From Streptomyces nodosus (GTDB lineage Bacteria > Actinomycetota > Actinomycetes > Streptomycetales > Streptomycetaceae): a stretch of 64,000 bases of DNA. The stretch lies in NCBI RefSeq assembly GCF_008704995.1, contig NZ_CP023747.1, positions 6,172,001-6,236,000 of the forward strand, read 5' to 3'. Position numbers and translations under genes: made by a program. Positions 1 through 17,800 of the stretch are shown one piece after another; the stretch's first letter is position 1; each line of letters opens with the position of its first letter. The notes beneath the pieces were generated by a model. The model ran no database searches. It saw nothing but the letters and a program-made list of their open reading frames with translations, and was not told the origin of the DNA.

Positions 1-3000
1 CCTGGCTGCGCTCGAGCTGCTCGGCGACCTTCGCCTTGAGCTGCTGGTAGGCGCCGATGTTGTTCAAGGCTGTGTAGCACTTGACCTCGACCAGGCGGCA
101 GGTGATCGTCCTGCGCCGGTCGTCGAGGTGGAACAGGGCCAGATCGCTGCGGTGGAAGGAGAGGGAGTCCCCCAGTTCTCGCACCTGGCGGCGTGCTTCG
201 CGATACAGCTCTGGATGTGCGTCCAATGGGACGATGATCTGGTTGGTGAGGACCCCCTGGTAGTCGAGGTAGAGCCGGGCGAGCGAGAGGCCGAGGACTT
301 CCGTGCGCTGGGTGGGAGCGGCGGACGCCAGCTTGAAGGCCAGGTTCCCCGACAGCAGCCGCAACTGATCGAAGAATGTGTGAAGGTGCCGCTGGTCGAC
401 ATTCAGGTCGTGGTCTGCGGCGACCGGACCGAGCAGGGCGCGCAGTTCGTCCACGGACTTGGAGCTGACCATGATCTGGTGGCCCAGAGTTCCGCCTGCC
501 TGCGGCACGTAGTCGATGACGTACTCGGGGCGTCCGTCATCGCCGGAGTGGTCGAAGTACTCCAGCCCCAAGGTCCGGTCGATGGTGACGACCCAGTCGC
601 TGACTTGATGGGCCTGGTACAGCAGAGCGCGGTCCGCGGTTTCCAGGGCGAGCACGGTGCAGGGGACGTGCCGCAGTGCGCGGCCTGCGGTGGCGACACT
701 CGCGGCGGCCGAGGCCATGAGCGCGGGGAGGTGGCCAAGAAGCGTGGTGAGGTCCTCGGCATCGTCCAGAACCGGTGCTTCGCCGTGCCGGGGGAACTTG
801 CGCCACGCGACCTGCTGTTCGTTCTCTACGTACCGCGATGCCATCGCCTGCACTAGTCCGTGGACCGGCGCGTGCGCGATGTCCTCGTGCTGGGTTGAGC
901 CGAGTTGTTCCCCGCCGAAGGCGTCGATGAGAACGGTGAGGTGCGCGTCGAATTCGCCAGGGTTGGCAGTGAACTCGTCCACCGACCGGACGGAGAAGGC
1001 CAGCTTCGCCTGGAACGCGCCCCCCGAAGGGTTGAGGAACGCCTCCGCCTCGGCGGCTGAGACCTGGGCCTCCGCGCGCAGCAGCTCAGCGAGCGCCTCT
1101 CCCGCCTCCGGCGCCTCCGGATCGCCAACACACAGACGCAGGTCGAAGCGCAGAGACCGCGTCACCTCCCGCCGTTGGAGCTCCAGCAGCATGTCGGCAA
1201 GCAGCTCACCGCGCCCCGCGTTCACGACGTTCATCACGAGGGTGTGGACATACGGATGCAGGCGCACATAGCGCTCCACGCGGTCTGCGAGATGCGTGCC
1301 CGACAGACCGGTGGACCCGGCACCGGTACCGGATGTAGCAGTCGGCAGTCGCAGTACTGAGGCCAGTTGGCCGAGCAGCCCGCGCGGGTCTTCCACCTCA
1401 CTGGGCAGATAGGCCCCCCAGTACGGAGTGAGGTTCTCCGCAGCCACCAGGAGGCGTCCGTCCCGCCGCGGCACCGCGAAGGGAAACCCCAGCGAGGACA
1501 GCTCGTCCATCAGCGAGCCGCGAGCGGCGACGACCTGGCGCCGGTCGGCGCCCGTCAGCCGCGTGATCCAGTCGGCGCCCAGGGCCGACCAGGTTGCCAG
1601 CCACAGGGCGCGTAGCGGGTGCGTAGGAGCCACGAGCAGGACGTGGTGGCGTTGTCCAAGCCCATCGGTGAGCGTCGCGGCCACGCAGTCGAACTGCAGG
1701 ATCTGGGCGAGACGGACGAGAACTGACGCCCGCTCCGTGTCCCCGGCCCGCTCCAGGTGGTGCAGCTGCGCCGCGATGAGCTCGGTGTACGCCTGCGCGT
1801 ACGCGGCGAGCTCTATGCGCACCGCCGAGAAGTCGACGGCCTCGGTGACCAGGAGACTCTCTTCTTCTGCCGCGTCGCCGGCGCCGCGGAGTGCGGAGAA
1901 ATAATCCCGCCTCGCCGCGAGGAAAGCGTCGAAGGCTTCGGCCGTCCGACCGGTCAGCGAGGCCACCAACCCGTCATCGGCATCGAGCACAGGGTCTCCG
2001 GCACTCCCCGGTCCCAGGCTGAGCTGCCACAGCCCCGGCCGGTCTGCCGCTGCGAGGATGCGCTGCTGAAGCACAGTGAGGGTGGGGGAGAGGCGGATGT
2101 CCACCGTCCCGGCGGCGCTGACCCGGGCGCTCAGCGTCCGTTGCTGGGCGCGGGCGGTGCCTGCCTTCCACCGGACTTCGCCGAGCGCGACACGTGCCGG
2201 GTCGTCACTGTTCGCTAGCGCCTGGAACTGAAGGTCGCGCAGGGCCTGTACGACACCCTCGTACCGGCCCGCACTGCGCTCTGGTGGCTCCTCCGTCTCC
2301 GCATCGGGCACGACGTAGAACCGCTCGCTCTGCCCCCCTGGCAGACCGTCGCCGGCCGACTCGACATCGAGAGGCTGCTCCTGGTCGTCGAGCGGTGTGA
2401 CGGTGAGGTAGTGCCATCCTTCGTCCCAGTCGATCTTCGTGAGTTTGGGCAGCTTCGCTTTGTGTTCGGCCTTGGCAGCCTTCTTCACTGAGGTGCTGCG
2501 GCCGATCGGCCCGGACTTCTCCGACGCGATCTCCACACGGAATCGGGCGAGCCCCTCCACCTTGCGAGGGAGGGGGTCGACCGTGAAGTGGGCGAGGAGC
2601 TCGCTGACGCCCTTCGGACCGGCCAGCAGATAGGGCTGGCCAGCTATGGCGGACAACGCGGGGTACGCGGCCAGATCGTCGGGCACGTCACCCGCGCGGG
2701 GCAGTCCGAGTTCCTGCACCTCGATGGAGATCGAGGCACGCTGGCGGTCGTCGAGGCGCCAGTTCCCGAAAGAAAGCGCCCAGTTCTCCCGGTCGACGAC
2801 GATACGCCGCGTCCACGCGACGCGGTCCTCCAGCCCGCAGCGGGCCACGAATCCGGCAAGGCGGCCGGCGAATTCCGAGTCAGTGAGCCCGAGTTCCAGC
2901 ACCCGCTGTCGCTCCGAGCGGGCGGACTCGGTCAGCTTGTCGACGAGGTCGCGATTACGGTCGGCTCGCTCCCGCACCTCGCTCGGTTGGGCAAACAGCT

Positions 3001-3628
3001 CGAAGTCCGGAACCAGGCCGAAATGGAAGACCGCGGCCCCGGCGGCCTGTTCTCCGTAGCCGTTGGCCTTGAGAGCGAGCAGGTACGCGGCACGGGCCCG
3101 TGCACTCGCGCGCTGGTCGGGGACCTCGCCCAGGAGCGCGAGCAGCTCCTCCACACTTGGTCGCAGCGTGGCCGGCACCTCGTCCAGCAGCTGGGCGGCG
3201 AGGAGGTCGTAGCTGTCTCCGAGAGAGATCTCCTCGAAGGTCGCGACACCGAAAGAGTCCTCTGCGCTGGCCCTGAGCCCCGGCGGCACGAAGACGAGCA
3301 GGGGTCCGGCAGCGCCGTCCGGCTGAGGCTGCTCCGTGCGGTTGCGCAACTCGACCAGCTTGGTGCTGGTCACTGTGACATCCCGCAGCTCGCTGCCTTC
3401 CTCGGTGTCCCGTGCAGGCCCCAGCAGACACACCTCGGCCCCCGAGCCGTTGGCGCTCCTGAGCCTGCGCACCAGACGCGCCGCGAGGGCGGCGTCCACT
3501 TCGGTCACCCGCATGCAGTGGCCCGCGTCGCGCGAGGCGAGCAGAGACGTGAGCCGGGGTACCAGCACGCCCTCCAGCGCATCGCGCAGATCTGCGGTGC
3601 TCGGCTCGGTCAGGCCCACAGTGCTCAC
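1..3628 (-). CDS. mad8: MAD8-like ATP-binding protein of the methylation-associated defence system, 3' end outside the window
   Basis: The last gene of the defence operon. About 1209 codons are visible and the frame is still open at base 1. The GTG start at 3628-3626 overlaps the TGA of the preceding gene (GTGA) and has a GGAGG upstream. The protein is large, acidic and mostly unrecognisable by eye. Near the window edge, reading RSDLALFHL then LVEVKCY, it has an Asp followed by a Glu-x-Lys pattern typical of PD-(D/E)XK nucleases (inference). In MADS the last gene is an ATP-binding protein; a Walker A motif is not seen in the visible part and would have to lie past the left edge. Size and position also recall DptH/DndH of phosphorothioate restriction systems. 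Confidence 0.7.
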   Translation of the reverse strand, partial: MSTVGLTEPSTADLRDALEGVLVPRLTSLLASRDAGHCMRVTEVDAALAARLVRRLRSANGSGAEVCLLGPARDTEEGSELRDVTVTSTKLVELRNRTEQPQPDGAAGPLLVFVPPGLRASAEDSFGVATFEEISLGDSYDLLAAQLLDEVPATLRPSVEELLALLGEVPDQRASARARAAYLLALKANGYGEQAAGAAVFHFGLVPDFELFAQPSEVRERADRNRDLVDKLTESARSERQRVLELGLTDSEFAGRLAGFVARCGLEDRVAWTRRIVVDRENWALSFGNWRLDDRQRASISIEVQELGLPRAGDVPDDLAAYPALSAIAGQPYLLAGPKGVSELLAHFTVDPLPRKVEGLARFRVEIASEKSGPIGRSTSVKKAAKAEHKAKLPKLTKIDWDEGWHYLTVTPLDDQEQPLDVESAGDGLPGGQSERFYVVPDAETEEPPERSAGRYEGVVQALRDLQFQALANSDDPARVALGEVRWKAGTARAQQRTLSARVSAAGTVDIRLSPTLTVLQQRILAAADRPGLWQLSLGPGSAGDPVLDADDGLVASLTGRTAEAFDAFLAARRDYFSALRGAGDAAEEESLLVTEAVDFSAVRIELAAYAQAYTELIAAQLHHLERAGDTERASVLVRLAQILQFDCVAATLTDGLGQRHHVLLVAPTHPLRALWLATWSALGADWITRLTGADRRQVVAARGSLMDELSSLGFPFAVPRRDGRLLVAAENLTPYWGAYLPSEVEDPRGLLGQLASVLRLPTATSGTGAGSTGLSGTHLADRVERYVRLHPYVHTLVMNVVNAGRGELLADMLLELQRREVTRSLRFDLRLCVGDPEAPEAGEALAELLRAEAQVSAAEAEAFLNPSGGAFQAKLAFSVRSVDEFTANPGEFDAHLTVLIDAFGGEQLGSTQHEDIAHAPVHGLVQAMASRYVENEQQVAWRKFPRHGEAPVLDDAEDLTTLLGHLPALMASAAASVATAGRALRHVPCTVLALETADRALLYQAHQVSDWVVTIDRTLGLEYFDHSGDDGRPEYVIDYVPQAGGTLGHQIMVSSKSVDELRALLGPVAADHDLNVDQRHLHTFFDQLRLLSGNLAFKLASAAPTQRTEVLGLSLARLYLDYQGVLTNQIIVPLDAHPELYREARRQVRELGDSLSFHRSDLALFHLDDRRRTITCRLVEVKCYTALNNIGAYQQLKAKVAEQLERSQ

Positions 3629-5268
3629 CGGACCACCTCCGCGCCGAGCGTCGTACCCATGGAGTAGCGAGGAGTGATGGTCTGCGTCAGATAGGCGTCC
3701 GACATGTCCTGGTAGTAGCCGATCTCGCGGAGGCGATGGGTGAAAGCGGTGGAGTTCGCTCGCAGCGCGGACTGGTCGTCGAGGTCGGCGCCCGTGAAGC
3801 CGTCCGAGTCGGGCAGCTGGTCGACGTACAGGCCGTAGCGCTCGCGCAGCACGGCGAGGAACTCGTCGATACGCATGGGTGAGGTCGACAGATTCCCGTC
3901 AGGCCCAGGGCGCAGCAGCGAAATCTGCAGCAGAATCTCCAGCAGCCGTGCGTCGAGGACGAAGCGGCGCTCCCCCCGGGTGCCACGCGGCTGGGCCAGC
4001 AATGCGCCGGGCCGGTTCTTCAGTAGCAGGGAGTCCAGGCAGTCGACGATGTATCCGCGGTGGTATCGGCCCTTGTAGTGCAGCAGCATCTCGATGTATT
4101 CGTCGAACGGGCTCAGGCCCAGGTCCGCGATCTGCCGTACCTCGGAGGGCGGGTCGGTCTCGTCGTCCAGCACCCCGTTCACGCGCTGGTCGAAGAAGTT
4201 GTCCCGCTCACTCTTGTACCCCTTGCCGAGCAAGGTCAGGACTTCGGCGGCCGAGAAGTAGGGACGGTCCTGGGGAGCGGTGAGCTTGCGACGCTTGGTC
4301 ATCAGGTGCTCGGCGAACTCGTCCAGCTTCTTCACCTCGAACGTGGCTTTGACGAACCGCTGGATGCGGCCATACCACACGCTGGCGCTGTGCTCTGCGA
4401 GAAGGGCAGCCGAGGTGCCGGGGACACCCTCGACGTCCACGAAGAGGTGGACGCGGTAGGGGCATTGATGGGCCGCATCCGCTCCCTTGTGCCCACTCGC
4501 ACACGAGGTGTCCACGGCGCCGGCGGCCACCGCTCTGGGCAGCAGTTTGATCATCCGCAAGTGGTAAAGCGCCAGATGGAAGGCGAAGAGGATCTTCAAG
4601 TACTCTACAAGGACCGTGCGCGGCATGTGCTCCTGGTGGTAGAGCAGCCGCATGACGTCCTCCGCGAGCAGCCGCGCGGGCTCCCGGCACAGCAGCGGAT
4701 AGGGCCTGCGGGGCTTGCTCGTGTCCGGCCGGTCCTCGACCTTGCCGTACGCCTTGCTCACCAGGTGCAGCAGCGCCTGCGTCTCCACGTCGGTGTCAGG
4801 ACCCGGTTTGATCGCACCGGTGGTCCGGTCCACGTCAGAGAAGAAGAACGACCGCAGCTCCTGCAGCGCACTGGGCGTCTCGGCGAGCATCTCGTAGAGC
4901 TGCTCATCGGCCCCGTACGGACGGGACTTGCGACTGTTGCGGAAGCGGTAGGTGAAGCCGTGAAGAGGGCGGGGGCCCGCCACGGCCTCGTTCACCCGGC
5001 CCCGGTTGACCAGATCCATCAGGTGTGTGTTCACCCAGCGGGTCGTCGTGTCCCGGTCGAAGCCCTCGAAGACATCAGGGTTGGCCAGGAAGAGGTCCAC
5101 GAAGTCGTCGACGGTGAGATCTCCGGCGCGACTGAGCTTGCTCGGCAGACCGCGATGCCACAAGCGAGCCAGGAAAGCGGTCAGAACCCGGTCCATGTGG
5201 AGCGTCTTGTAGTCGACACGGCTCACCCCGGGATGGTGGAACTTGCTGTGCACACTGGTCAGCGCCAT
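3625..5268 (-). CDS. mad7: MAD7-like defence protein of unknown biochemical role
   Basis: A 547-residue protein beginning MALTSVHSKFHHPG, with ATG at 5268 preceded by a strong GGAGGAG. It overlaps the end of the kinase gene by 8 bp and the next gene by 4 bp, so it is translationally coupled on both sides. No enzymatic motif is visible; it looks like a helical, all-cytoplasmic protein with a Cys/His-containing patch (CASGHKGADAAHQCPY, about residues 258-273). The name rests on its place between the kinase and the large ATP-binding gene, which is the MADS order. The same place in DndFGH systems is filled by DptG, so a structural scaffold between two ATPases is a reasonable guess, not more. Confidence 0.65.
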   Translation of the reverse strand: MALTSVHSKFHHPGVSRVDYKTLHMDRVLTAFLARLWHRGLPSKLSRAGDLTVDDFVDLFLANPDVFEGFDRDTTTRWVNTHLMDLVNRGRVNEAVAGPRPLHGFTYRFRNSRKSRPYGADEQLYEMLAETPSALQELRSFFFSDVDRTTGAIKPGPDTDVETQALLHLVSKAYGKVEDRPDTSKPRRPYPLLCREPARLLAEDVMRLLYHQEHMPRTVLVEYLKILFAFHLALYHLRMIKLLPRAVAAGAVDTSCASGHKGADAAHQCPYRVHLFVDVEGVPGTSAALLAEHSASVWYGRIQRFVKATFEVKKLDEFAEHLMTKRRKLTAPQDRPYFSAAEVLTLLGKGYKSERDNFFDQRVNGVLDDETDPPSEVRQIADLGLSPFDEYIEMLLHYKGRYHRGYIVDCLDSLLLKNRPGALLAQPRGTRGERRFVLDARLLEILLQISLLRPGPDGNLSTSPMRIDEFLAVLRERYGLYVDQLPDSDGFTGADLDDQSALRANSTAFTHRLREIGYYQDMSDAYLTQTITPRYSMGTTLGAEVVR

Positions 5269-8200
5269 GTCTCCTCCTCATCCCCGTCACCGGACACGGC
5301 GGACAGGTCCTCCATGTGCAGCGCATGATCCGGTGTGCGGTGGACCCGGCGCAGATCGTGTCCGTGGGCGGTGAGCAACACTTCCTGGTACGGCACCGAG
5401 GCGAGCCGATTCTTGAACACGGAGAGGGCGAGCTGCTGCCCCTGCACGTCGGCGACGCCCGGCCGGTACCCCTGGGCGAAGCGCTGCAGCAGTTCGAACA
5501 GGTCGAGCCCGATGGCCAGTTCAGCCTCCGCTCCCTGACGTCCGTCAGGATCCTGGAAGCGCAGTCGCAGTGCCGTCCGGCTGCCTTCGACGTATATCGA
5601 GGCCGGGGCGTCCCCGGGCTCCAGCGTGAAGCCAGCCGCAGGGAACAGCCGGAAGCTGCGTACCGTGCCGTGCGGCACGGTACGCAGCTTCAACGCCATG
5701 GCCTCACCGATCCGGTCCGGCGCTGCCAGCCCCTCTCCCCGGTTGAGCGCGTACAGCAGCTCGTCCCGGGCCGCCGCAGCAGCCGTCGGTGAGGCGAGCA
5801 GAGAAAGAAATCGCAGCGCGGACGGGTAGGGCAGCATGCGCTCGGCACGCGCGTCGTCCCGGAGCTCGAAGTAGAGCAGCCGCCGCGCCGCGCCCAGATG
5901 GCGGCGGTGCGCGAGGATGTCCTCCGACAGCGCGGAGGTGGACCGCGCCAGCATGGCGAACTGCGCCGCGATCAGCTGCCTGTCCCGATCGGAGCGTCCG
6001 TCGATGGCGACCAAGGCGCGGTCGTCGATGAGCCCGGTGTAGTCGAGCCGCCGGTCCAGCTGCGGCTGGGGCGAAGCGGCAACGTCCGTCTCCCGAAGCA
6101 GCCTCAGTAGTCGGTCCCGCTCTCTGGGCAGTCCGTTCGGAGCCGGTGGGGTGCCCAGGTAGGCGGAGAAGTAGTAGCTGTCGAGCAGGGGTTGCGCCTC
6201 GTCTGCCGCGTGCACTGCGTGAATCTCCGCGCAGTCTCGTCCCGAGGTGAGCGTGTAGGCGAGAGCGGAACGCAGATCGCGCAGGGTGATGTGGAGCCGG
6301 CCGCGCAGTTGGGTGAGCTCGTAGACCCTGCGCAGCCGACGCTTGACCTGTGGACCCGCGTCGGGGTGGCGGAACGTCTGGGCGTTGTGCCGCGCGTAGC
6401 AGGTGTCGGCGATGTCGCAGGACGCGCACACCTCCCAGAAGCGCTCATGCGTCATGCGGTCCAGCATCCGCTCCAGAATCGACTCGTCGTCGACAGGGTT
6501 GCCTTCCTCGTCGGCCGGGCGGGCGGTCACATCACGTGTGTTGAGGTTGACCACGGCGACCGCGTCACCGGTTTCCCCGCCCGCCAGGCCGATGTTGACC
6601 AGCTTGGACAGGAGCGGGAAGCGCTCGTGGTGGTGGCTGAGAAAGTCCACCAGGCGTCCCTCGTTCACCGCGATCAGGCGAGTTTCCCTTTGCCCCGCCC
6701 AGCCGGTGGCGTCTTCGCCGGCGTACGGTGCGAAGAAGTCCTCCAGTACGTGGTCGCTGGCGGCGTCGGCCTCGTCCTGGCTGCCGTCGTGGTTGGTTCG
6801 GAAGCGATGTCCGTCGAGCGTGAAATCACTGCCGTTGAGGCGATCGGGTCCGAACTGGGCATCGAGTTTGCGCGCCTGGGCCTCGAAGCTCTCCAGGAAC
6901 GCGGTTTTCCCATCACCCGCGTTACCGGTGACGATGACCAGCGCGTGCTTTCCCGCGCGCAGAGCAGGGACCAACGCGCGGTCCAGGGCCGTCTCGACGT
7001 ACACCTGCATGCCCTGAGGGTCGAGACCGCGGGTGCCGCGGTTGCTGCGGTGGCTCTGGCTGTAGAGCGTCTGCAAGTGGGCTACGTACGGGTTGGTGTT
7101 GGGCGCCGGTTCGGCAGCCGGGGCGGCCGGGGACACACTGGCAGGGTCGGCATCCTCTGGCTGGGCGGACCGAGGCACAGGCACACGGGCGGCTCCCAGA
7201 GTCTCCAGCGCGGAGAGTAGTTCCTCGGCCGAGCTGAAGCGCTCCGCACGGTACGGCGAGGCGGCCCTCAGCAGGATTTCCACCAGCCCAGGCGAGAGAT
7301 CGCCGAAGCCGCTGAAGATGGTGCGCGGATCAAGGGCCTGCATGCCGGGCGGCGGCTGACCGGCGTCTCCCCACGGGTACTGTCCGCCCGTGAGAGCCTC
7401 GTACATCGTGACGCCCAGGGCGAACAGATCACGGTCGGCGAAACCGCTGCCGTCGGCAGGCACCTCATCCAGATCGGGCGGGGTATAGCGGGGACTGGTG
7501 TGGGTGTGCCCCTCGGAGGAGTCCGCGGTCTTGGCGATTCCGAAGTCGATGAGCTTGACGCCGTCGTCGGTCCACAGCAGGTTGCTGGGCTTGATGTCGC
7601 AGTGCCACACACCGAGCCGGTGGATATGCGCGAGCCCCCGGGCCGTGTCGGTTCCGAGGCGCAGTACATCGGCCGGGCCGAGCCGACCGTCGCGGATCAC
7701 CTCGCTGACGTCCCTGCCCTCGACGAACGCGAACACGAGATAGGGATAGTTGTCCGGAGGCAGCAACCGGTCAGCGTCCACCATCGCCACCACATTGGGG
7801 TGCGGAGCGCTGGTCAGACGCTCCAGAACGCTCGCCTCGCGGCGCAGCCGCTCCAGCGGCGAGTCGCGGTCGTGCAGGACGAGCTTCACTGCCCGGTCGA
7901 CGTTCCTTATCGTGTCGTACACCCGGTAGGCGACACCGAAGGAACCGGGGCGGCCCAGCCGGTTGCGCACGATGTACTTCGTGCCGAGCTGGAAGTCGGC
8001 GGCCAGGTTCTTGAAGAACGAGGGGTCGCGGGGCCCGTCGGCAGCTGCCGCAGGTGCCGGTGGCGGAGTGCCGGGCGGCGTGGGGGGAGCCGCGGAACTC
8101 AGACGTTTCCGCGGGGCACGCTGCGCGCCCACCGCGAGATTCAGTCTGCGCAGAGCTTCGACAGCTGTCGGGCGCTCGTTCGGATCCGTGGCGCACAACG

Positions 8201-9542
8201 TCTGCAGCCAGTGCGCCAGCTCGGTGCGAACACCGGCGGCTTCGAGCTCACTGGCGGGCAGCCGGCCGTCTGCACTGGCCTGCTTCGTGGCGGAGGAGAA
8301 CGGCACATGCCCGGTGAGCAACTCGAAGCCGATGACGCCTACGGCGTAGATGTCCGCGGGTTCGAGCATCCGTCTCGGATCGGCATGGCACTCAGGCGCC
8401 AGGTATGCCGTCTCGGCCGCGGCACGGGCCTGGTGCATCACGGTGTGGCCGCGCTGCTGCGCCGTCTTCGCGTAGTCGAAGCCCGTGAGCACGGCCCGGC
8501 CGTCCTGCGTGATCAGGACGGTGGACGGGCTGAGCTCGCGGTGCGCGATGCGGCGGCTGTGCGCGTGGGCCAGGCCGAGCAGGATGTGACGGATGGTCCG
8601 CAACTTCGCGTCCGCCGTGAGAGGATCGTCGGCGCCCTCACCCAGATGAAGCCGCAGGGCATGGCCCGGAACGTCGTCGTAGACGGTGACGTACGCGCTC
8701 TCGTCATCCAGCGCGAAGAAGTCCCGCACCCCGACGATATGCGGGTGGGGAGGCAGCTTGCCGAGTGCCTCGTACGCGATCCCGATCTGCTTCTGCCGCA
8801 TCAACCGGTCCGCGGCGGGAGCGTACGGGTCGGCGGCGCGTACCGAGAGCCGTACCGTGCCCGAACCCTGCACAGCGAGGGCGTTCTTCGCCCGGTACTC
8901 GTCCAGTACGTCGATGCCGGGAGCGCGCTGGGACTCGCTGAGCCGCTCGATCACCTCCCAGCTCCCGAAGCGGAGCGGGCCGGACGGGGCACGGGAGCTG
9001 CCCTGGACAGTGCCGACGATAGTCGCGTGGTGCGCCGAGATGTCGGCATCCACAGGACGGGTCGCTACAGGAACGCGGCCGGCGTCGGCGAGACGACCGA
9101 TCAGCTCGGGCAGCGTCACGGTCGCCTTGAGGTCCCGTTGGTCCGGCGTGTGATCGACCAGTACTGCGTCAGGGGCCGGCAGCACGACGAGCGCATCCGT
9201 GTAGACACGGGCCAGTTGCGGGTGCGCGTTTTCCAGGATGCTCTTCAGCTTCTTGGCGTGGCCGCGCAGCTTTGGCAACGGGCTCCTGAACGGCGCGCGC
9301 CTCGCCGGATGCCACCGGCTTCCCTCGACCTCGATGCGGCCCCGGGTGCCCTTGACGTCGATGACGTACACGGCATGCCCGGTGACCACAACGAGGTCGA
9401 CCTCAAACAGCTCGTCTCGCTGCGGTATTTCGACAGAGTGCAGGACCGTCCAGTCGTCCGGGCCCTGATCGCGCAGATGCGCGATCACCCGCCGCTCGGC
9501 ATCGTTGACGGCCTCCCCAACAGCAACGATCCTGGCTCCCAT
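5259..9542 (-). CDS. mad6: MAD6-like NERD / pseudokinase / Ser-Thr kinase / P-loop ATPase fusion protein
   Basis: A 1427-residue multidomain protein; ATG at 9542 overlaps the TGA of the specificity gene (ATGA), so the longer open frame upstream is not used. A NERD domain (about 15-130) carries the D49...D62-x-K64 nuclease-like pattern. A first kinase fold (about 190-470) has HRE instead of HRD (334-336) and GFD instead of DFG (354-356), so it is probably a pseudokinase. A second kinase (about 530-780) keeps the VAIK-type Lys (553), HCDIKPSN (647-654) and DFG (666-668) and should be active. The C-terminal third has a Walker A, GNAGDGKT (873-880), and a Cys cluster near 1039-1048. The family is known as the MADS kinase; PglW of BREX type 2 shares only the NERD-kinase part. 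Confidence 0.85.
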   Translation of the reverse strand: MGARIVAVGEAVNDAERRVIAHLRDQGPDDWTVLHSVEIPQRDELFEVDLVVVTGHAVYVIDVKGTRGRIEVEGSRWHPARRAPFRSPLPKLRGHAKKLKSILENAHPQLARVYTDALVVLPAPDAVLVDHTPDQRDLKATVTLPELIGRLADAGRVPVATRPVDADISAHHATIVGTVQGSSRAPSGPLRFGSWEVIERLSESQRAPGIDVLDEYRAKNALAVQGSGTVRLSVRAADPYAPAADRLMRQKQIGIAYEALGKLPPHPHIVGVRDFFALDDESAYVTVYDDVPGHALRLHLGEGADDPLTADAKLRTIRHILLGLAHAHSRRIAHRELSPSTVLITQDGRAVLTGFDYAKTAQQRGHTVMHQARAAAETAYLAPECHADPRRMLEPADIYAVGVIGFELLTGHVPFSSATKQASADGRLPASELEAAGVRTELAHWLQTLCATDPNERPTAVEALRRLNLAVGAQRAPRKRLSSAAPPTPPGTPPPAPAAAADGPRDPSFFKNLAADFQLGTKYIVRNRLGRPGSFGVAYRVYDTIRNVDRAVKLVLHDRDSPLERLRREASVLERLTSAPHPNVVAMVDADRLLPPDNYPYLVFAFVEGRDVSEVIRDGRLGPADVLRLGTDTARGLAHIHRLGVWHCDIKPSNLLWTDDGVKLIDFGIAKTADSSEGHTHTSPRYTPPDLDEVPADGSGFADRDLFALGVTMYEALTGGQYPWGDAGQPPPGMQALDPRTIFSGFGDLSPGLVEILLRAASPYRAERFSSAEELLSALETLGAARVPVPRSAQPEDADPASVSPAAPAAEPAPNTNPYVAHLQTLYSQSHRSNRGTRGLDPQGMQVYVETALDRALVPALRAGKHALVIVTGNAGDGKTAFLESFEAQARKLDAQFGPDRLNGSDFTLDGHRFRTNHDGSQDEADAASDHVLEDFFAPYAGEDATGWAGQRETRLIAVNEGRLVDFLSHHHERFPLLSKLVNIGLAGGETGDAVAVVNLNTRDVTARPADEEGNPVDDESILERMLDRMTHERFWEVCASCDIADTCYARHNAQTFRHPDAGPQVKRRLRRVYELTQLRGRLHITLRDLRSALAYTLTSGRDCAEIHAVHAADEAQPLLDSYYFSAYLGTPPAPNGLPRERDRLLRLLRETDVAASPQPQLDRRLDYTGLIDDRALVAIDGRSDRDRQLIAAQFAMLARSTSALSEDILAHRRHLGAARRLLYFELRDDARAERMLPYPSALRFLSLLASPTAAAAARDELLYALNRGEGLAAPDRIGEAMALKLRTVPHGTVRSFRLFPAAGFTLEPGDAPASIYVEGSRTALRLRFQDPDGRQGAEAELAIGLDLFELLQRFAQGYRPGVADVQGQQLALSVFKNRLASVPYQEVLLTAHGHDLRRVHRTPDHALHMEDLSAVSGDGDEEETWR

Positions 9543-10957
9543 CAGGCAGCGGCCTCCTCGATGGCTTCGGTCAGCAGGGCGAGCGCCTGGTCTTCGAGGA
9601 CATCGGCGCGGTCGCGGTTGCGGTAGGCGCGGCGGACTGTTTCGGCGATGCGGTGGCGGTCTTCGGGGGCGGCGATGGGGATGGGAATCTCGGCTCGCAG
9701 AGCTTCGTGGATGTCCTGCTGCTTGCCTCCGGTGCTCATGGAGCGAAGGAGACGAAAGGCGGCCTCGGAGCGGAAGAAGGCGAAGAGATAGGCGCCGGGG
9801 ATATCTGGGTCGCCGCTGAGGATGCGGAGGAAGTCCTCCGAAAAGGCGTACTGGGTCCAGGAACCTGCCGCCAGGATCGGGCGGCAGTAGACTTCGTTCT
9901 CGCCCAGCGTGCCGCGAGCGGCGACGAGGATCGTCTCGTCCTCCGCGAACACTTCCTCTGGGGTCGCTGCTGTACTGATCCACCGACCTTCCGGCCGGAG
10001 CCAGAATGCCTGCCGTTGACCGACAAGTTGCACACCGTGCTCAGGATCGCTGTCGATGCGCTTGAAGCGAACTCCACGGCTCAGTTGGCCACCCGAGCAG
10101 ATCTCGCCCAGTGTTTTGTTGGGCGCTGTGTCGAGCTTTTCGATGAGACGCCGGGCCCTTGGGGCGAAGTTGAGCGCACGCAAGGTGGTCGGTCCGACTT
10201 CCCCCACCTCGAATCCGAGGTCCCGCTCCTGCTGGTGCCAGCAAATGTCGATCAACTCAGGCAGGTCGACGCTCCTGAAGAAGTCCTCCGTCGCGGTCAC
10301 CAGCCCGGTCTGGAAGCGTGCGCGCAGGCGGGCGCTGAGCTCCACCATGCGGTGGATCCGCTCTTCCAAGTTCTCTTCGAACCGAGGTACGGGCAGGTCG
10401 GCGATGTGGTGCGGCTCGATGTGCTGGATGATCGCGCCGTACGCCGAACTCGCGATCATCGGGACGCCGAACTTGCTGCGCAGGAAGGTGTACAGGTAGC
10501 CGGACGGGATCCGTTCTGTGTTCGCTGCCACCTTCATGACGTGCTGGGAAGACCAGATGCCAGCCATGTCTGGGCGTACGTAGGCCATCCGCCCAACCGT
10601 TCCTGAGCACGAGATGAGCGTCATGCCCGGCTCGACTTCGAGGTACGGAAACTTGTCCGCGACCTTCGTGCTCAGCTGGGGCAGAAAGCTGAAGTCTGCC
10701 TCCATCATGTCGGTGCTACCCAAGAAGGGCACGGTGTGGTTCAGGTCATCCAGGTAAACCCTGCTGAACTTCGGTCCGTTGAAAATTCCCCCATTGTGTC
10801 CCGCGGTCATGTTGTTCAGACGCACGGTATTCGGCAACCGCTCCAACAGCTTCCGAGCCTCCAACGCCCCCGACAAATAGGGCGAAGGATCCAGCCGGAA
10901 CCCCTGGTCGGCGAGCCAATCCGACGTGACCGGGTGGGACAGGCTGACAAGCTTCAC
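9542..10957 (-). CDS. mad5: Type I restriction specificity subunit (HsdS-like), MAD5
   Basis: A 471-residue protein with the two-half layout of type I S subunits: two target-recognition regions (about residues 40-180 and 270-420), each followed by a helical stretch (EERIHRMVELSARLRARF; DRHRIAETVRRAYRNRDRADV) that acts as the conserved spacer. It would choose the DNA sequence methylated by the adjacent methylase. GTG at 10957 overlaps the preceding TGA (GTGA). No HsdR is encoded nearby, so the subunit is expected to serve the MADS methylase and its ATPase/kinase partners instead of a classical type I restriction complex. Confidence 0.85.
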   Translation of the reverse strand: MKLVSLSHPVTSDWLADQGFRLDPSPYLSGALEARKLLERLPNTVRLNNMTAGHNGGIFNGPKFSRVYLDDLNHTVPFLGSTDMMEADFSFLPQLSTKVADKFPYLEVEPGMTLISCSGTVGRMAYVRPDMAGIWSSQHVMKVAANTERIPSGYLYTFLRSKFGVPMIASSAYGAIIQHIEPHHIADLPVPRFEENLEERIHRMVELSARLRARFQTGLVTATEDFFRSVDLPELIDICWHQQERDLGFEVGEVGPTTLRALNFAPRARRLIEKLDTAPNKTLGEICSGGQLSRGVRFKRIDSDPEHGVQLVGQRQAFWLRPEGRWISTAATPEEVFAEDETILVAARGTLGENEVYCRPILAAGSWTQYAFSEDFLRILSGDPDIPGAYLFAFFRSEAAFRLLRSMSTGGKQQDIHEALRAEIPIPIAAPEDRHRIAETVRRAYRNRDRADVLEDQALALLTEAIEEAAA

Positions 10958-11598
10958 GAGGCGTACTCCGGGGGGAACCAGGTGCGGAGGATGGACTGTA
11001 GGCGCTGGAACGCGGGATCGGTGCAGCCGTTGGTGGACAGCGCGGCAACCCGCTTGAAGACGGCGTTGGACTTGTCCGCGCGATACTGCTTGCTCTTCCG
11101 CAGGAATTGCAACGCTTCTTTGGGGTCGGTCGGTTTTGCCTTACCAGGTGGCCAGGAAGCGGGCCCCATGGCGGGCAACAGCTCCCGGACCGGCGTGCCG
11201 CGGTGCTGCCGGGGGAGATTCAGTACCGTTCCGAGCTCGGGGTGATCGCGCCAGAACCACACCTCTAGCTCGGGGTCAAGAACGATCACGGCGGAGCTCT
11301 TCCATACCCCGTCGAGCTGTTCTTCGACCCGCGCTCGGATCGCGGCTGCGCCGGGGCTGCCCTCCCACTGGGCGTCGACGAGTACGACGGCGTAGGACTC
11401 GTCGCGCTCGTACGGTCGGAGCAGTTCACGTGCTGTGTTGTAGACGCCCGGATCCTTAGTGGGGGCCACGACCGTCTCGTACGTGAACGAGGCACAACCG
11501 AGCCGCTTGTGGAATTGGTCCCGGCCGAAGAAGCCGAGCAGCATCTGTTCCATCGCCCCGTCGGCCAGCAGGAAGATGACCCGTCGTTCCGTCGTCAA
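10954..11598 (-). CDS. mad4: MAD4-like small protein, possible TOPRIM/DUF4276-type fold
   Basis: A 214-residue protein starting at a TTG that overlaps the ATPase stop codon (TTGA); no better ATG or GTG is available near it. The opening reads RRVIFLLADGAMEQMLL, and later AVVLVDAQWEGSP and AVIVLDPELEVWFW, a spacing of acidic residues after hydrophobic strands that resembles TOPRIM-like proteins encoded beside OLD/AAA ATPases. It directly follows an AAA15-type ATPase gene, the usual arrangement for such pairs. Assignment as MAD4 rests on position. Whether it is a nuclease is not known from the sequence. Confidence 0.65.
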   Translation of the reverse strand: MTTERRVIFLLADGAMEQMLLGFFGRDQFHKRLGCASFTYETVVAPTKDPGVYNTARELLRPYERDESYAVVLVDAQWEGSPGAAAIRARVEEQLDGVWKSSAVIVLDPELEVWFWRDHPELGTVLNLPRQHRGTPVRELLPAMGPASWPPGKAKPTDPKEALQFLRKSKQYRADKSNAVFKRVAALSTNGCTDPAFQRLQSILRTWFPPEYAS

Positions 11599-12878
11599 CT
11601 CAGTACCCCCGCCGCGAACAGCGTGCCGATGTCGAGTGCCCCTTGCCAGTCCTTGAGCCGCGGATGCTGGTCGCCCGGGACAACGGTGACCTGTCCGTCA
11701 CCGTTGAGGCGGGCGGCCAGCACGTCACTCAGCTCTACGTGAGCCAGAACCAGCGGCGAATGGGTGGATACCCACACCTGGGTGTCGTACATCGATGCCA
11801 GCGACTGGACGACGGTCTCGATCGCCCGTGGATGGATGCCGTTCTCAGGTTCTTCGGTGACGAGTATCCGTGGAGGTTCCGGAAGATAGGGCAAAAGGGT
11901 CAGCGCCAGCACCCGTAGGGTGCCATCGGACAGGCCGCTGCTAGTAACGCGGTGGCCCCCCTGGTACTGGACGTCGAAGTAGGCGTAACGGTCCTCGTCC
12001 CGTACGCGCACATCCACCGTGTCGATCTGGGGCAGCGCGGTCTGGATGTGCTCCACCCACGCCTGGTAGCTGTCCGGATCCTGTTCCCGCAGGCCGAGCG
12101 CCAACCATGGGACGTTGCGGCCGTCACCACGCAGCGGCAACAGGCGGTCGCCGGGAGGGGATGCCTTGCGTAGTATCCCCCAGTCGGGGGCATACGAGAC
12201 GGCGTTCTGCTGGACCAGCTCGATGAACCAGAGGGCCGCGGGGTACTGGTCGCGGTCCTGCGGGAGCGTCGCCAGTGCGAGCTGGTCCGCAGGGACGCGC
12301 CTGGTGGCACCGGGTGCCTTGCGTGGCAGCTCCGGGCGGAAGTACGGGTCGTCGCCGCGCTCGCGACGGACGACGTAACGCCATTCGCGGTGCGCCGGCA
12401 TCCGGTTCGCGCCGGTAGGCCGTCCCTGCAGGGTGCTGCCGAGCAGCGGCCGGTTGCGATGTTCGTTGAACAGCAACAGATACTCTTCGGCGACCTGGAG
12501 CGTGTCGTTGAAGATTTCCAGGCTCACCTCGTACCGCAGGTGGGTTGGGGGGTGCGGCCCGGCCGTTTCCGCCGCGAACTCCCGGGCGAGCTCGTCGGGC
12601 AGCTGTGCTTCCACCGTGAGCGTGAAGGTATTGCCACGGTTGCAGTGCACCAGCTCCCGGAGCGTGTGTGTGCGGGGGACGGCCGCGTTGTCCTGCGGCA
12701 CGAGGAACGCGTCGGCTACGGTCTGCCGCGGTCGTAGCAGATCACCCAGCAGCCCCGGGATGTCCAGCAGCGTCGTCTTGCCGGCGCCGTTGGGTCCGGC
12801 GAGCACTTGAAACTGGCCGAGGTCCACAGCTAGCGCACGGAAGCAGCGGTACTGGTACGCCTCGATTCTGGTGATCAT
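11595..12878 (-). CDS. mad3: AAA family ATPase (AAA15/OLD-like), MAD3
   Basis: A 427-residue ATP-binding protein of the RecF/OLD-like class. The N-terminus has YQYRCFRALAVDLGQFQVL followed by Walker A AGPNGAGKTTL (about 28-38). The C-terminal half has the ABC-type signature region SSGLSDGTLRVLAL, Walker B ILVTEEPENGIHP and the H-loop VWVSTHSPLVL. No TOPRIM domain is fused; that role may fall to the next gene. ATG at 12878 overlaps the methylase stop codon (ATGA). In MADS this ATPase is called MAD3; in other systems similar proteins (Gabija GajA, OLD) sense or cut DNA. Confidence 0.85.
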   Translation of the reverse strand: MITRIEAYQYRCFRALAVDLGQFQVLAGPNGAGKTTLLDIPGLLGDLLRPRQTVADAFLVPQDNAAVPRTHTLRELVHCNRGNTFTLTVEAQLPDELAREFAAETAGPHPPTHLRYEVSLEIFNDTLQVAEEYLLLFNEHRNRPLLGSTLQGRPTGANRMPAHREWRYVVRRERGDDPYFRPELPRKAPGATRRVPADQLALATLPQDRDQYPAALWFIELVQQNAVSYAPDWGILRKASPPGDRLLPLRGDGRNVPWLALGLREQDPDSYQAWVEHIQTALPQIDTVDVRVRDEDRYAYFDVQYQGGHRVTSSGLSDGTLRVLALTLLPYLPEPPRILVTEEPENGIHPRAIETVVQSLASMYDTQVWVSTHSPLVLAHVELSDVLAARLNGDGQVTVVPGDQHPRLKDWQGALDIGTLFAAGVLS

Positions 12879-15025
12879 GCCGGGCTGCCAGCGGATGCGG
12901 CACGGGGATCGGCCCCTGGCATGGGGTACTTCGCGCGGAACTCCCGGTACTTCTCAGCGATGACCGGCAGGTCGTTGTCGACGACCGGCCGGCTCCGCTT
13001 CAGCTCGCGGACCTCGTCTTTTCCGTTGATCCGGATCCGCTCACGCTCAACCGTCGCCTCCATTACCACGTCACCATTCGGGTGGCGCTTGTACAGCTCA
13101 TTGCCGCGCCGGTCGAAGCCCACCTTTTCGGCGACGGCCATGAACACCGGGTAGGGCTTCTCGGTGCCGATTCGGTGGTTGCGCACCTCTTGGGCGGTCT
13201 TCTTCTTCAGGAAGAGCAGCGTAGTCAGGATGTTGACGTTGGCGTCGACGATGAAGGTCTCCACCGGCAGCTCGACGCTGGCAAGGACCCAGCACTGCTC
13301 CAGGATGTAGCGGCGGATCGCTTCGGCAGTGGGGCCGGGGTTGGACAGAACACCGTTGGGCAGGACGATGCCGATACGGCCTCCGGGTTTGACCCATTCA
13401 ATGGCCCGCTGGATGAACAGCTCTTCGGGAGCCATGCTCGTCGGCTTGCTGATGCTCTCGACGAGCTCGCCGGTGTCCTTGTCTCGCCCCCAGGACTTGG
13501 CGACGCCGTCGCGGAACGACCCCAGCACCGATTCGTCGCTGATCGGGATGTCCGCGCCGAAGGGAGGGTTGGTGAGCAGCACATCCACGGTCTCGCCGAG
13601 CGGGATCTTCGCCTTTGCGGGCTCCACACCCGACAGATGCCCCCGCGGGAAGGCGAGGGAATCCATGTGGAAGACGTTCCCCGTGGTGTCCGCCAGGGTC
13701 ATGATGTTCATGGTGGTGGCGCGCACCAGGAACGGGTCGAAGTCCGAACCGAACAGGTGCTTGTCGGCGTAGGCACGGAGCTTGTCCCGGTAGCGCTCCG
13801 TCTGCTCGGGGCTGTCCGGGAAGCCGTACGTCCCGTCTTCCTTCTGCCAGGTGTGGTGCAGGTGGTTGAGCGTGGCCTGAAGGAAGCCGCCGGTGCCGCA
13901 GGTCGGGTCTAGGACGGTCTCGTCCTCCTGCGGGTTGAGAATCTCCACCATCAGCCGAACAGCGCCACGGGGAGTGAAGTACTGGCCCCGGTCCCCGCGC
14001 AGGTTGGTGCCAACCAGCTCCTGGTAGGCGATGCCCTTGGCATCGACGTCGGTGCCGCCGAGGTCGTAGGGGGCAAGCTCGCTCACGATGAACGCCAGGG
14101 CCCGGTCGGAGAGTGTGATCTCGTCCGTCTGCTTGAAGACGTTCAGCGGCGCGTACTCGGCTTTGACCTCCTCGAAGAGACTCTCGATCCGTTTCCGGAT
14201 GGCGGCCCGGCCCTCGTCGGAGAACGGCTCAGTCATGTCCGTCCGGAATCGGGCGCGGCCCGTTCCGCGGCTCTTGCGCTCGTCGTACATCTTGGCGAAG
14301 AGGAGGTAGAGGAACTGCCAGAACGCGGCGTCCTTCGGCATGCCTTCATTGCCGTGAATGTAGTTGTGGCAGCGGCGGAAGGTCGTCTTGAGCATCTCCG
14401 GCTCGGCTCGGCGTAGCCGCTGATGGGAGACGACCGTACGGCTGCCGACGCTCTCGGGCGCGACGTCCCAGTCGCTGCGGTCCTCATACGTTGCGCCGAA
14501 CTTGTTGACGATCTTCTTGAGGAAGAAGAAGTCGACCCCATCGGTCCACATGCCGTCGGTACACTGCGGGCGATCCTCAGCGCCGAGCAGATCCTTAAGC
14601 TCCTGAAGATCCTTCTGCGCCTGAGCAGGCTCACGGAGCTTCACCACATTCTTGCCGCGCTTGGGCTCCGGCTTGCAGACGACGACCCGCCGGAGGTTCT
14701 CCTCGGAGCGCTCGGACGGCTTTGTGCCGTGCACGAAGATCGCGATGTCGGCCTTCTTCTTCCGGGCACGGGCACCGTCTGTACTGACCGTAATGGGAAA
14801 GTCCGCCGCCATGTCGCCCGGTGAGATGCCGTGCTCGTGGAACAGGGCACGGGCGATGCGCTGGCGGACCCTCTCCTTCGGGGTGTCCTTGACCGGAGTG
14901 TTGGTGATGTAGTCGACGATCTGGCCCTCGCCGAGCGTCGTGACCTGGGGCTGGGGCACCGCCTCCGGGGACACTTCCGGTTCCGTAGGACGCGGAATTT
15001 CCAGGTCCAAGGTCAACTCCTCCAT
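12875..15025 (-). CDS. mad2: N6-adenine DNA methyltransferase (HsdM-like), MAD2
   Basis: A 716-residue methylase. Motif I is LDPTCGTGG (about 371-379) and the catalytic motif IV is NPPF (about 486-489), the pattern of type I N6-adenine methylases. The roughly 370-residue N-terminal extension includes a region like the HsdR N-terminal nuclease fold (KADIAIFVHG ... VVVCKPEPKR), but the usual Glu before Cys-Lys is Val, so cleavage is doubtful. ATG at 15025 is preferred over the in-frame TTG just upstream; the ribosome binding site is weak. It is the first gene of the MADS operon and should protect host DNA at the sites picked by the S subunit. Confidence 0.88.
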   Translation of the reverse strand: MEELTLDLEIPRPTEPEVSPEAVPQPQVTTLGEGQIVDYITNTPVKDTPKERVRQRIARALFHEHGISPGDMAADFPITVSTDGARARKKKADIAIFVHGTKPSERSEENLRRVVVCKPEPKRGKNVVKLREPAQAQKDLQELKDLLGAEDRPQCTDGMWTDGVDFFFLKKIVNKFGATYEDRSDWDVAPESVGSRTVVSHQRLRRAEPEMLKTTFRRCHNYIHGNEGMPKDAAFWQFLYLLFAKMYDERKSRGTGRARFRTDMTEPFSDEGRAAIRKRIESLFEEVKAEYAPLNVFKQTDEITLSDRALAFIVSELAPYDLGGTDVDAKGIAYQELVGTNLRGDRGQYFTPRGAVRLMVEILNPQEDETVLDPTCGTGGFLQATLNHLHHTWQKEDGTYGFPDSPEQTERYRDKLRAYADKHLFGSDFDPFLVRATTMNIMTLADTTGNVFHMDSLAFPRGHLSGVEPAKAKIPLGETVDVLLTNPPFGADIPISDESVLGSFRDGVAKSWGRDKDTGELVESISKPTSMAPEELFIQRAIEWVKPGGRIGIVLPNGVLSNPGPTAEAIRRYILEQCWVLASVELPVETFIVDANVNILTTLLFLKKKTAQEVRNHRIGTEKPYPVFMAVAEKVGFDRRGNELYKRHPNGDVVMEATVERERIRINGKDEVRELKRSRPVVDNDLPVIAEKYREFRAKYPMPGADPRAASAGSPA

Positions 15026-15251
15026 CAAGGTCCACTCATCTCTGTGTATCCGGGCTCATGCGGCGCAGATGGGCCAGTGACCGATCCCGCTCCACCAGCG
15101 ATTTTACGGCCGCGGAAGCGGACACTCCCCGCTCTTCAGCACGCGGGGTGAGCCTACTGGGCACCACTGACAATCGTCTGCTGAGCGTGAAGGACAGGAC
15201 GGTGTGTGATACGCGGCGTGCAGGGTACCTGCGTCACAGCAGGTGGGAGAT
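15026..15251. promoter_or_regulatory. Intergenic region expected to hold the mad2 promoter
   Basis: This 226-bp gap precedes the mad operon and follows the AIPR gene. It contains a short GC-rich hairpin (arms 15127-15132 and 15143-15148) without a T-run, which could slow readthrough from the AIPR gene. No mad1-like HTH gene fits here. I could not fix a -10/-35 pair with confidence. Confidence 0.4.
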
Positions 15252-17375: not shown

Positions 17376-17405
17376 GCCATCGCTCCTCGTCAAGAGTGTC
17401 AGACA

Positions 17406-17487
17406 GATCACTCTATCGAGGGATCGTTGCGCGGCGCAGTGGGTTGCTGATCTTCCTCTGCTTTGAAGAAGATCACACTATGTGATC
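17406..17487. promoter_or_regulatory. Operator-like repeats in front of the AIPR gene
   Basis: A perfect 7-bp inverted repeat with a 3-bp spacer, GATCACACTATGTGATC, lies at 17471-17487. Its left half with spacer (GATCACACTA) recurs with one change as GATCACTCTA at 17406-17415. The two lie 65 bp apart just upstream of the AIPR start, where a repressor would act. The cognate regulator is not apparent in the window. Confidence 0.5.
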
Positions 17488-17800
17488 ACCTGGGACCGGC
17501 CGGTAGTGCAGCACGCAGCAGATGACGGGCACTCGGTGCTCGAGACACAGCCGCCGCCGAGCTGGCCATCGAGCCTCGCCGCCAACGCCGTACGGCACGG
17601 CCACGCGCCCGGCTGGGACTTCCACCTCCTGCTGACGGCAATCTCCGACAACGGCGAAGCGCTGAGCCGGCGGGTGAACAGACCGACTTCTCCGGACGTG
17701 CGGTCCGAGGCCGATCAAGGGAACTCAGCCGCTCCACGGTCCATCGCCGGCGGCGTCACGGCACTGATCGCCTTCTTTCTCTGTCACGTGTCGAGTGTGA
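17482..17800 (+). pseudogene. Remnant of an RsbW-like ATP-binding (anti-sigma regulatory factor type) gene
   Basis: On the plus strand one frame reads ARDTAAAELAIE and the next frame continues LAANAVRHGHAPGWDFHLLLTA. Together these reproduce the N-box region of Streptomyces RsbW-like HATPase proteins (usual form: ...TELVTNAVRHG...). A frameshift near 17571 and the absence of a recognisable C-terminal G-box show it is broken. It separates the AIPR gene from the PLD operon. Confidence 0.5.

Follow-up and report, generated by a model that had tools for sequence, protein, structure and literature searches.

A predicted MADS phage-defence operon of Streptomyces nodosus with a DndFGH-like module and a candidate DNA-damage promoter

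The DNA analysed here is a stretch of 64,000 nucleotides of Streptomyces nodosus (genome bases 6172001-6236000, contig NZ_CP023747.1), referred to as the window. At its left edge lies a gene cluster that, judged by protein family and gene order, is a real and nearly complete phage-defence operon of the methylation-associated defence system (MADS). We favour, at a probability of about 0.75, a reading in which methylation by MAD2 and MAD5 would provide a self mark, MAD6, MAD7 and MAD8 would attack unmarked DNA in the manner of DndFGH, and a PafBC-type promoter would switch the operon on. All seven proteins, MAD2 to MAD8, exceeded the cut-offs of the NCBIfam MADS equivalogs, with their genes in type order, and the PADLOC models mad2 to mad8 were each matched within the operon. 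The genes share one direction on the minus strand, from window position 15025 past the left window edge. They and their main domains are as follows (window coordinates; NCBIfam scores in bits against the cut-off):

12875-15025, minus strand: mad2, N6-adenine DNA methylase, HsdM-like (NF047738, 1016 bits against 720; N6_Mtase, 1.6e-32).
11595-12878, minus strand: mad3, OLD/RecF-type ABC ATPase (NF047739, 585 bits against 420; AAA_21, 5e-26).
10954-11598, minus strand: mad4, small protein (NF047734, 232 bits against 160).
9542-10957, minus strand: mad5, HsdS-like specificity subunit (NF047740, 617 bits against 400; PADLOC mad5, 2.4e-38).
5259-9545, minus strand: mad6, NERD nuclease, pseudokinase, active Ser/Thr kinase and DndF/SspF core (NF047741, 768 bits against 460).
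9177-9506, minus strand: NERD nuclease domain of MAD6 (Pfam NERD, 5.2e-18; D50, D/E63, K65).
5538-7031, minus strand: DndF/SspF-like core of MAD6, residues 839-1336 (hhalign 99.6%, E 1.2e-23).
3625-5268, minus strand: mad7, DndG/SspG homologue with predicted winged helix-turn-helix DNA binding (NF047733, 654 bits against 410).
1-3628, minus strand: mad8, N-terminal 1209 of 1848 amino acids, DndH/SspH homologue (NF047742, 222 bits against 175).
80-145, minus strand: predicted nuclease motif of MAD8, D1162...E1181-V-K1183, conserved in 39/39 relatives.

A first-pass annotation, made from the letters of the window, had proposed consecutive genes in MADS order, and the comparison with the MAD profiles that it advised bears this out for MAD2 to MAD8. 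It had also advised reading on to the left of base 1. There mad8 (genome 6170082-6175628), which extends ~1.9 kb beyond the window edge, completes as the seventh gene at about window -1918. Read from the DNA, the junctions from mad2 to mad8 are ATGA, TTGA, GTGA, TGATG, a 10-bp overlap and GTGA; TGATG, between mad5 and mad6, is a 1-bp overlap if the start ATG at 9542 is taken for this boundary. The overlaps listed earlier thus stand for the linkage of the genes, for ATGA, TTGA and GTGA and for the last GTGA, while the junctions number six and not seven, mad5/mad6 is not GTGA, and mad6/mad7 overlap by 10 bp and not 8.

Compared through the NCBIfam and PADLOC models, the MADS of Pseudomonas aeruginosa (Maestri et al. 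2024) and the window share the mad2-mad8 order, all proteins being over the cut-offs. This order recurs in other Streptomyces, in Actinomadura and on a Piscinibacter gummiphilus plasmid (NZ_CP136338) that carries MAD1-MAD8 and shares 53% (MAD2), 46% (MAD3), 48% (MAD7) and 44% (MAD8) identity with the window; a shorter form is present on Bacteroidota plasmids. Since all seven proteins clear curated equivalog cut-offs and the gene order recurs elsewhere, the locus is not a product of chance. MAD2, MAD5, MAD6, MAD7 and MAD8 form a core that was constant across the genus, GTDB and plasmid loci traced. In contrast to the P. aeruginosa and Piscinibacter systems, the window is without MAD1 and has a RecA-NDp promoter motif and a gene of the AIPR family upstream of mad2.

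Profile comparison identifies MAD6 as a homologue of SspF/DndF, MAD7 of SspG/DndG and MAD8 of SspH/DndH, encoded in the same gene order. F-G-H triplets of other Streptomyces, named by PADLOC, served as SspFGH comparators. MAD6 consists of a NERD nuclease, a pseudokinase (HR followed mostly by a residue other than D), an active kinase (HxD, DF) and a P-loop region, and its residues 847-1381 match PADLOC SspF at 5.7e-30. In 37/37 sequences from three phyla the P-loop region keeps its P-loop, three Cys and an Asn at the Walker B position unchanged, and the NERD residues are conserved in the same number. An N-terminal extension of NERD and two kinases, together with the P-loop, Walker-B-Asn and Cys features, is known from a subset of DndF proteins in a study whose main text is silent on MADS and HsdS (Rakesh, Aravind and Krishnan, PMC10853773). 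The N-terminus with NERD, inactive kinase and active kinase is also shared with PglW of BREX type 2/Pgl; the PglW equivalog aligned with MAD6 at E 1.6e-55 but reached 188 bits, below its cut-off of 990. Unlike in BREX type 2, no PglZ, PglX or PglY is named among the operon proteins, and the C-terminus of MAD6 is DndF-like.

MAD7 was aligned with SspG by hhalign at 95.8% in a first comparison and at 97.7% for the C-terminal domain. A low-confidence structure model of MAD7 scored Z 9.6 against 7exx, a structure of DndG (root-mean-square deviation 6.7, 245 residues aligned), the next match having 3.8. For MAD8, the nuclease region aligned with SspH at 94.3% (E 1e-7), and four segments of the protein each had SspH as best match in the same order, those outside the nuclease region weakly. 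Unrelated pairings, used as controls, gave at most 4.3% in the first comparison and at most 2.0% in the segment comparison. Conversely, the PADLOC mad8 model matched the C-terminus of SspH at 4.8e-28. Besides the PD-(D/E)XK nuclease motif, MAD8 carries a HerA/FtsK-type ATPase; all 39 relatives compared, which come from Actinomycetota, Pseudomonadota and Bacteroidota, keep both the D...ExK triad and the Walker A P-loop. Structure matches of MAD8 (VIA-align) below Z 8 were treated as weak. Among these are Shedu, McrBC and HamA nucleases at the nuclease region (Z 5.7-7.3) and SAM-methylase-like alignments in a low-confidence region of the model (Z 6-7), to be compared with the inactive methylase domain that precedes the nuclease in DndH. 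Searching PDB sequences with the MAD7 profile yielded just chance-level HEPN matches, and SspG queries had no match among plasmids.

Unlike SspFGH/DndFGH modules, which are linked to phosphorothioate marking or stand alone, the module in the window is coupled to the adenine methylation genes mad2 and mad5. DndC (TIGR03183) had no match in the genome; SspBCD were not searched for. SspFGH is known to damage DNA that lacks the host mark and is toxic to cells without the modification (PMC8092258). SspF-G-H-like triplets are present in other Streptomyces (loci L112-L118), and several of them, such as L113 and L115, adjoin a predicted C5-cytosine methylase, which suggests other methylation-coupled systems of the DndFGH type.

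The homology of MAD6-MAD8 bears on the source of the restriction activity. MAD2 is HsdM-like and MAD5 HsdS-like, and the genome has one HsdR-like gene (genome 6381-6385 kb), so that a type I restriction-modification system borrowing this distant HsdR for cleavage may be considered. We regard this as very improbable: the gene lies ~210 kb from the operon in a separate type I cluster with its own methylases (HsdM) and specificity subunit (HsdS), it scored 122 bits against a cut-off of 284, and the MADS equivalog scores are far over their cut-offs. As the MAD6-MAD8 complex would itself supply the restriction part, no HsdR would be needed. The first-pass description of the locus as lacking HsdR is therefore right for the operon but does not make it nuclease-free, given the PD-(D/E)XK motif of MAD8 and the NERD domain of MAD6. 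In MAD2, the NPPF motif is intact and invariant in 34/34 sequences. Its N-terminus is HSDR_N-like but degenerate; as a hidden nuclease it was dropped, because the motif is not conserved.

The absence of a mad1 gene, noted in the first pass, extends to the whole genome: the best match of the MAD1 equivalog NF047737 reached 34 bits against a cut-off of 80 and was not near the locus. As a control, MAD1 of the Piscinibacter plasmid scored 95 bits. The PADLOC mad1 model proved too generic as a marker, being positive in 14/14 controls, and NF047737 was used instead. Lack of mad1 is ordinary in the Streptomyces MADS clade of the window and no defect of this copy. Because no mad1 was seen in this clade or in a Hymenobacter locus, MAD1, although one of the full set of eight genes, is treated as accessory to MADS and not as defining. 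The 226-bp gap between mad2 and the next gene upstream, reported earlier to be free of a helix-turn-helix regulator, indeed has this size, with mad2 starting at ATG 15025, and encodes no such protein. It holds a conserved promoter motif instead:

15151-15173, minus strand: RecA-NDp/PafBC-type motif TTGTCAGTG-N8-TAGGCT before mad2.

This is the single match in the window, and 100 shuffles gave none. The perfect form TTGTCRGTG-N8-TANNNT occurs 25 times in the 7.8 Mb genome, and a reversed control 0 times. Genes just downstream of these copies include recA, uvrA, uvrB, ung, pcrA, an ogt-family gene and rpsF. Before mad2 of relatives the motif is perfect in 16 of 19 GTDB loci and has one mismatch in the other three; it is likewise kept in the genus genomes of the window's clade. 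In another clade (genomes G653, G580 and G634) it stands 72-128 bp before mad6 rather than mad2. The motif was not found in the second Streptomyces clade, which bears MAD3/MAD4, before Actinomadura mad6 or in Piscinibacter, and an Rfam scan over positions 1-24000 had no match. In outline, RecA-NDp promoters are described as standing before DNA-damage genes in Streptomyces (PMC5087735) and as activated by PafBC (PMC6789036), and PafBC as triggered by single-stranded DNA in mycobacteria (PMC11804915). A tandem pair of WYL genes at genome 1709669-1710864 is a candidate for PafBC. Among the titles and abstracts listed, none connected MADS with RecA-NDp/PafBC promoters.

The motif includes a recognisable -10-like TAGGCT and could thus be an ordinary promoter of a constitutive MADS. 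Its rarity in the genome, the zero count in the reversed control, its position before recA, uvrA, uvrB, ung and pcrA and its recurrence before mad6 in the other clade make this improbable. It appears that the missing mad1 regulator was replaced by a DNA-damage promoter of the host.

MAD3 and MAD4 are the variable part of the operon. MAD3 matches AriA/AAA_21 models, as in PARIS and other OLD-type ATPase-Toprim pairs, and a published comparison places MADS among the OLD ABC-ATPase/Toprim pairs (PMC12409363). Unlike in PARIS, MAD3/MAD4 belong to a methylation-based operon, and they are optional there: none of the window's closest relatives that were examined has them, nor do two plasmid loci of Bacteroidota. 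Both occur in the second Streptomyces clade, in partly divergent form in Actinomadura, and in Piscinibacter. In trees of MAD6-MAD7-MAD8 and of MAD2-MAD5 the window is sister to the group without MAD3/MAD4. Identity with the second clade is 49-52% for MAD3 and 46-50% for MAD6-MAD8. As MAD3 is about as distant from that clade as MAD6-MAD8, ancestral retention of MAD3/MAD4 in the window seems likelier than recent import.

These genes, and AIPR, matter for a different view of MADS, by which it would act mainly through abortive infection: the MAD6 kinase, MAD3-MAD4 or AIPR would bring about death or arrest of the cell, with MAD8 as a sensor or DNA pump and not a cutter. The invariance of the MAD8 nuclease triad speaks against this, as does the absence of MAD3/MAD4 from most relatives and of AIPR from some while MAD2, MAD5, MAD6, MAD7 and MAD8 stay together. 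Still, the second MAD6 kinase keeps its active-site residues in 37/37 sequences, OLD-type ATPase/Toprim pairs like PARIS work by cleaving tRNA and arresting translation (PMC12409363), and AIPR/AbiU is annotated as an abortive-infection family. On balance we consider abortive infection an unlikely main mode.

The AIPR gene is the next gene upstream of mad2:

15252-17411, minus strand: AIPR (AbiU-like) gene (PF10592, 1.8e-33).

It is the only AIPR gene of this genome. AIPR was found in 17/20 MADS-positive Streptomyces genomes compared with 95/373 others (Fisher p about 1e-7, a value inflated by shared ancestry), and all 17 have a copy inside the MADS locus. AIPR is also present in 3/4 Actinomadura loci. 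By this co-occurrence, AIPR is a conserved companion of Streptomyces MADS. Whether it works as a part of MADS is another matter, since it might be a mere neighbour in a defence island. The 226-bp gap separates it from mad2, its placement varies (before mad2, inverted between mad5 and mad6 in two relatives, inverted after mad8 in one), and it is over the cut-off in 111/393 genomes of the genus. We hold this for possible but somewhat less probable than a functional role, given its enrichment within MADS loci and its single copy here.

Taken together, the evidence is consistent with the following scheme. MAD2 and MAD5 would mark the host chromosome as self by adenine methylation at a fixed target site. 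MAD6, MAD7 and MAD8 would form a complex of the DndFGH/SspFGH type, in which MAD7 may read DNA through its winged-helix domains, MAD6 may be the hub that binds nucleotides and carries a NERD nuclease and a Ser/Thr kinase, and MAD8 may travel on DNA by its HerA-type ATPase and cut or nick DNA without the host mark. MAD3-MAD4, an OLD-type ABC ATPase with a small partner, probably serve as back-up effectors, as does AIPR. In the window's clade a PafBC-type DNA-damage promoter would turn on mad2-mad8 in place of a local helix-turn-helix regulator, and would tie the defence to single-stranded DNA exposed during infection or self-damage. We infer these enzymatic activities, the division of labour and the promoter function, whereas the gene identities, the homology of MAD6-MAD8, the conservation of the catalytic residues and of the promoter motif, and the co-occurrence of AIPR are observed. 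Several points weigh against the scheme. The homology of MAD7 and MAD8 to SspG and SspH is strong only in parts (the C-terminal 100 residues of MAD7 and the MAD8 nuclease region), the models of MAD7 and MAD8 are of low confidence (mean pLDDT 60.7 and 51.8), and Foldseek with both against the PDB gave nothing significant. The RecA-NDp consensus letters are those reportedly given by Gamulin in 2004; that the pattern is enriched at recA and uvr genes lends them independent support.

MAD7 was over the cut-off in 20/393 genomes of the genus and in 3/396 genomes of an even phylum sample, all three of this genus. Relatives found by name belong to Streptomyces and close genera, and viral contigs contained no MAD7 relatives. 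Several loci depart from the common layout. Actinomadura loci (L125-L128) carry an extra cassette, an ABC-type ATPase with unknown partners, between mad5 and mad6, that is, between the methylation half and the MAD6-MAD8 half; the idea that such loci lack mad2 and mad5 was rejected when both genes were found further upstream behind the insert. A Bacteroides finegoldii plasmid (L111:23097-23762) has a PP2C phosphatase gene directly 3' of mad8, possibly an antagonist of the MAD6 Ser/Thr kinase. In one genome of low completeness (G761:C1:5757000-5776000) the locus is split into many frame fragments, probably by sequencing error rather than decay. A different genome (G480:C1:2131000-2166700) holds a remnant of partial mad6, mad7 and mad8, and neither mad2-mad5 nor AIPR was found upstream. 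Next to the S. nodosus operon, an open reading frame of 528 amino acids (genome 6168530-6170116, minus strand) overlaps the end of mad8 and has no Pfam, PADLOC or NCBIfam match. A sequence that directly follows mad8 in Actinacidiphila paucisporea (L046) is 84% identical to residues 35-102 of this frame, and no match was reported outside that stretch. The genes upstream of AIPR include one for an 884-amino-acid protein that weakly matches PLD-nuclease/ZacB and one for a DDE transposase (window 17784-20438 and 22385-23761), consistent with a mobile defence neighbourhood.

A 2026 review gives no restriction mechanism for MADS (PMC12904381), and the homology of MAD6-MAD8 singles out a candidate nuclease and names its predicted catalytic residues. 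By the same homology, a single restriction module seems to have been paired with different self marks, sulfur in Dnd/Ssp and adenine methylation in MADS. The promoter motif predicts that phage infection or self-damage would raise MADS expression through PafBC. We lean slightly towards a wider picture in which MADS is a nuclease-translocase of the DndFGH type that has exchanged its coupling to DNA sulfur marking for one to adenine methylation. By this view, the machine in Streptomyces would have given up its own regulator and come under the single-stranded-DNA-triggered PafBC response on at least two occasions, before mad2 in one clade and before mad6 in another, with AIPR as a lineage-specific companion.

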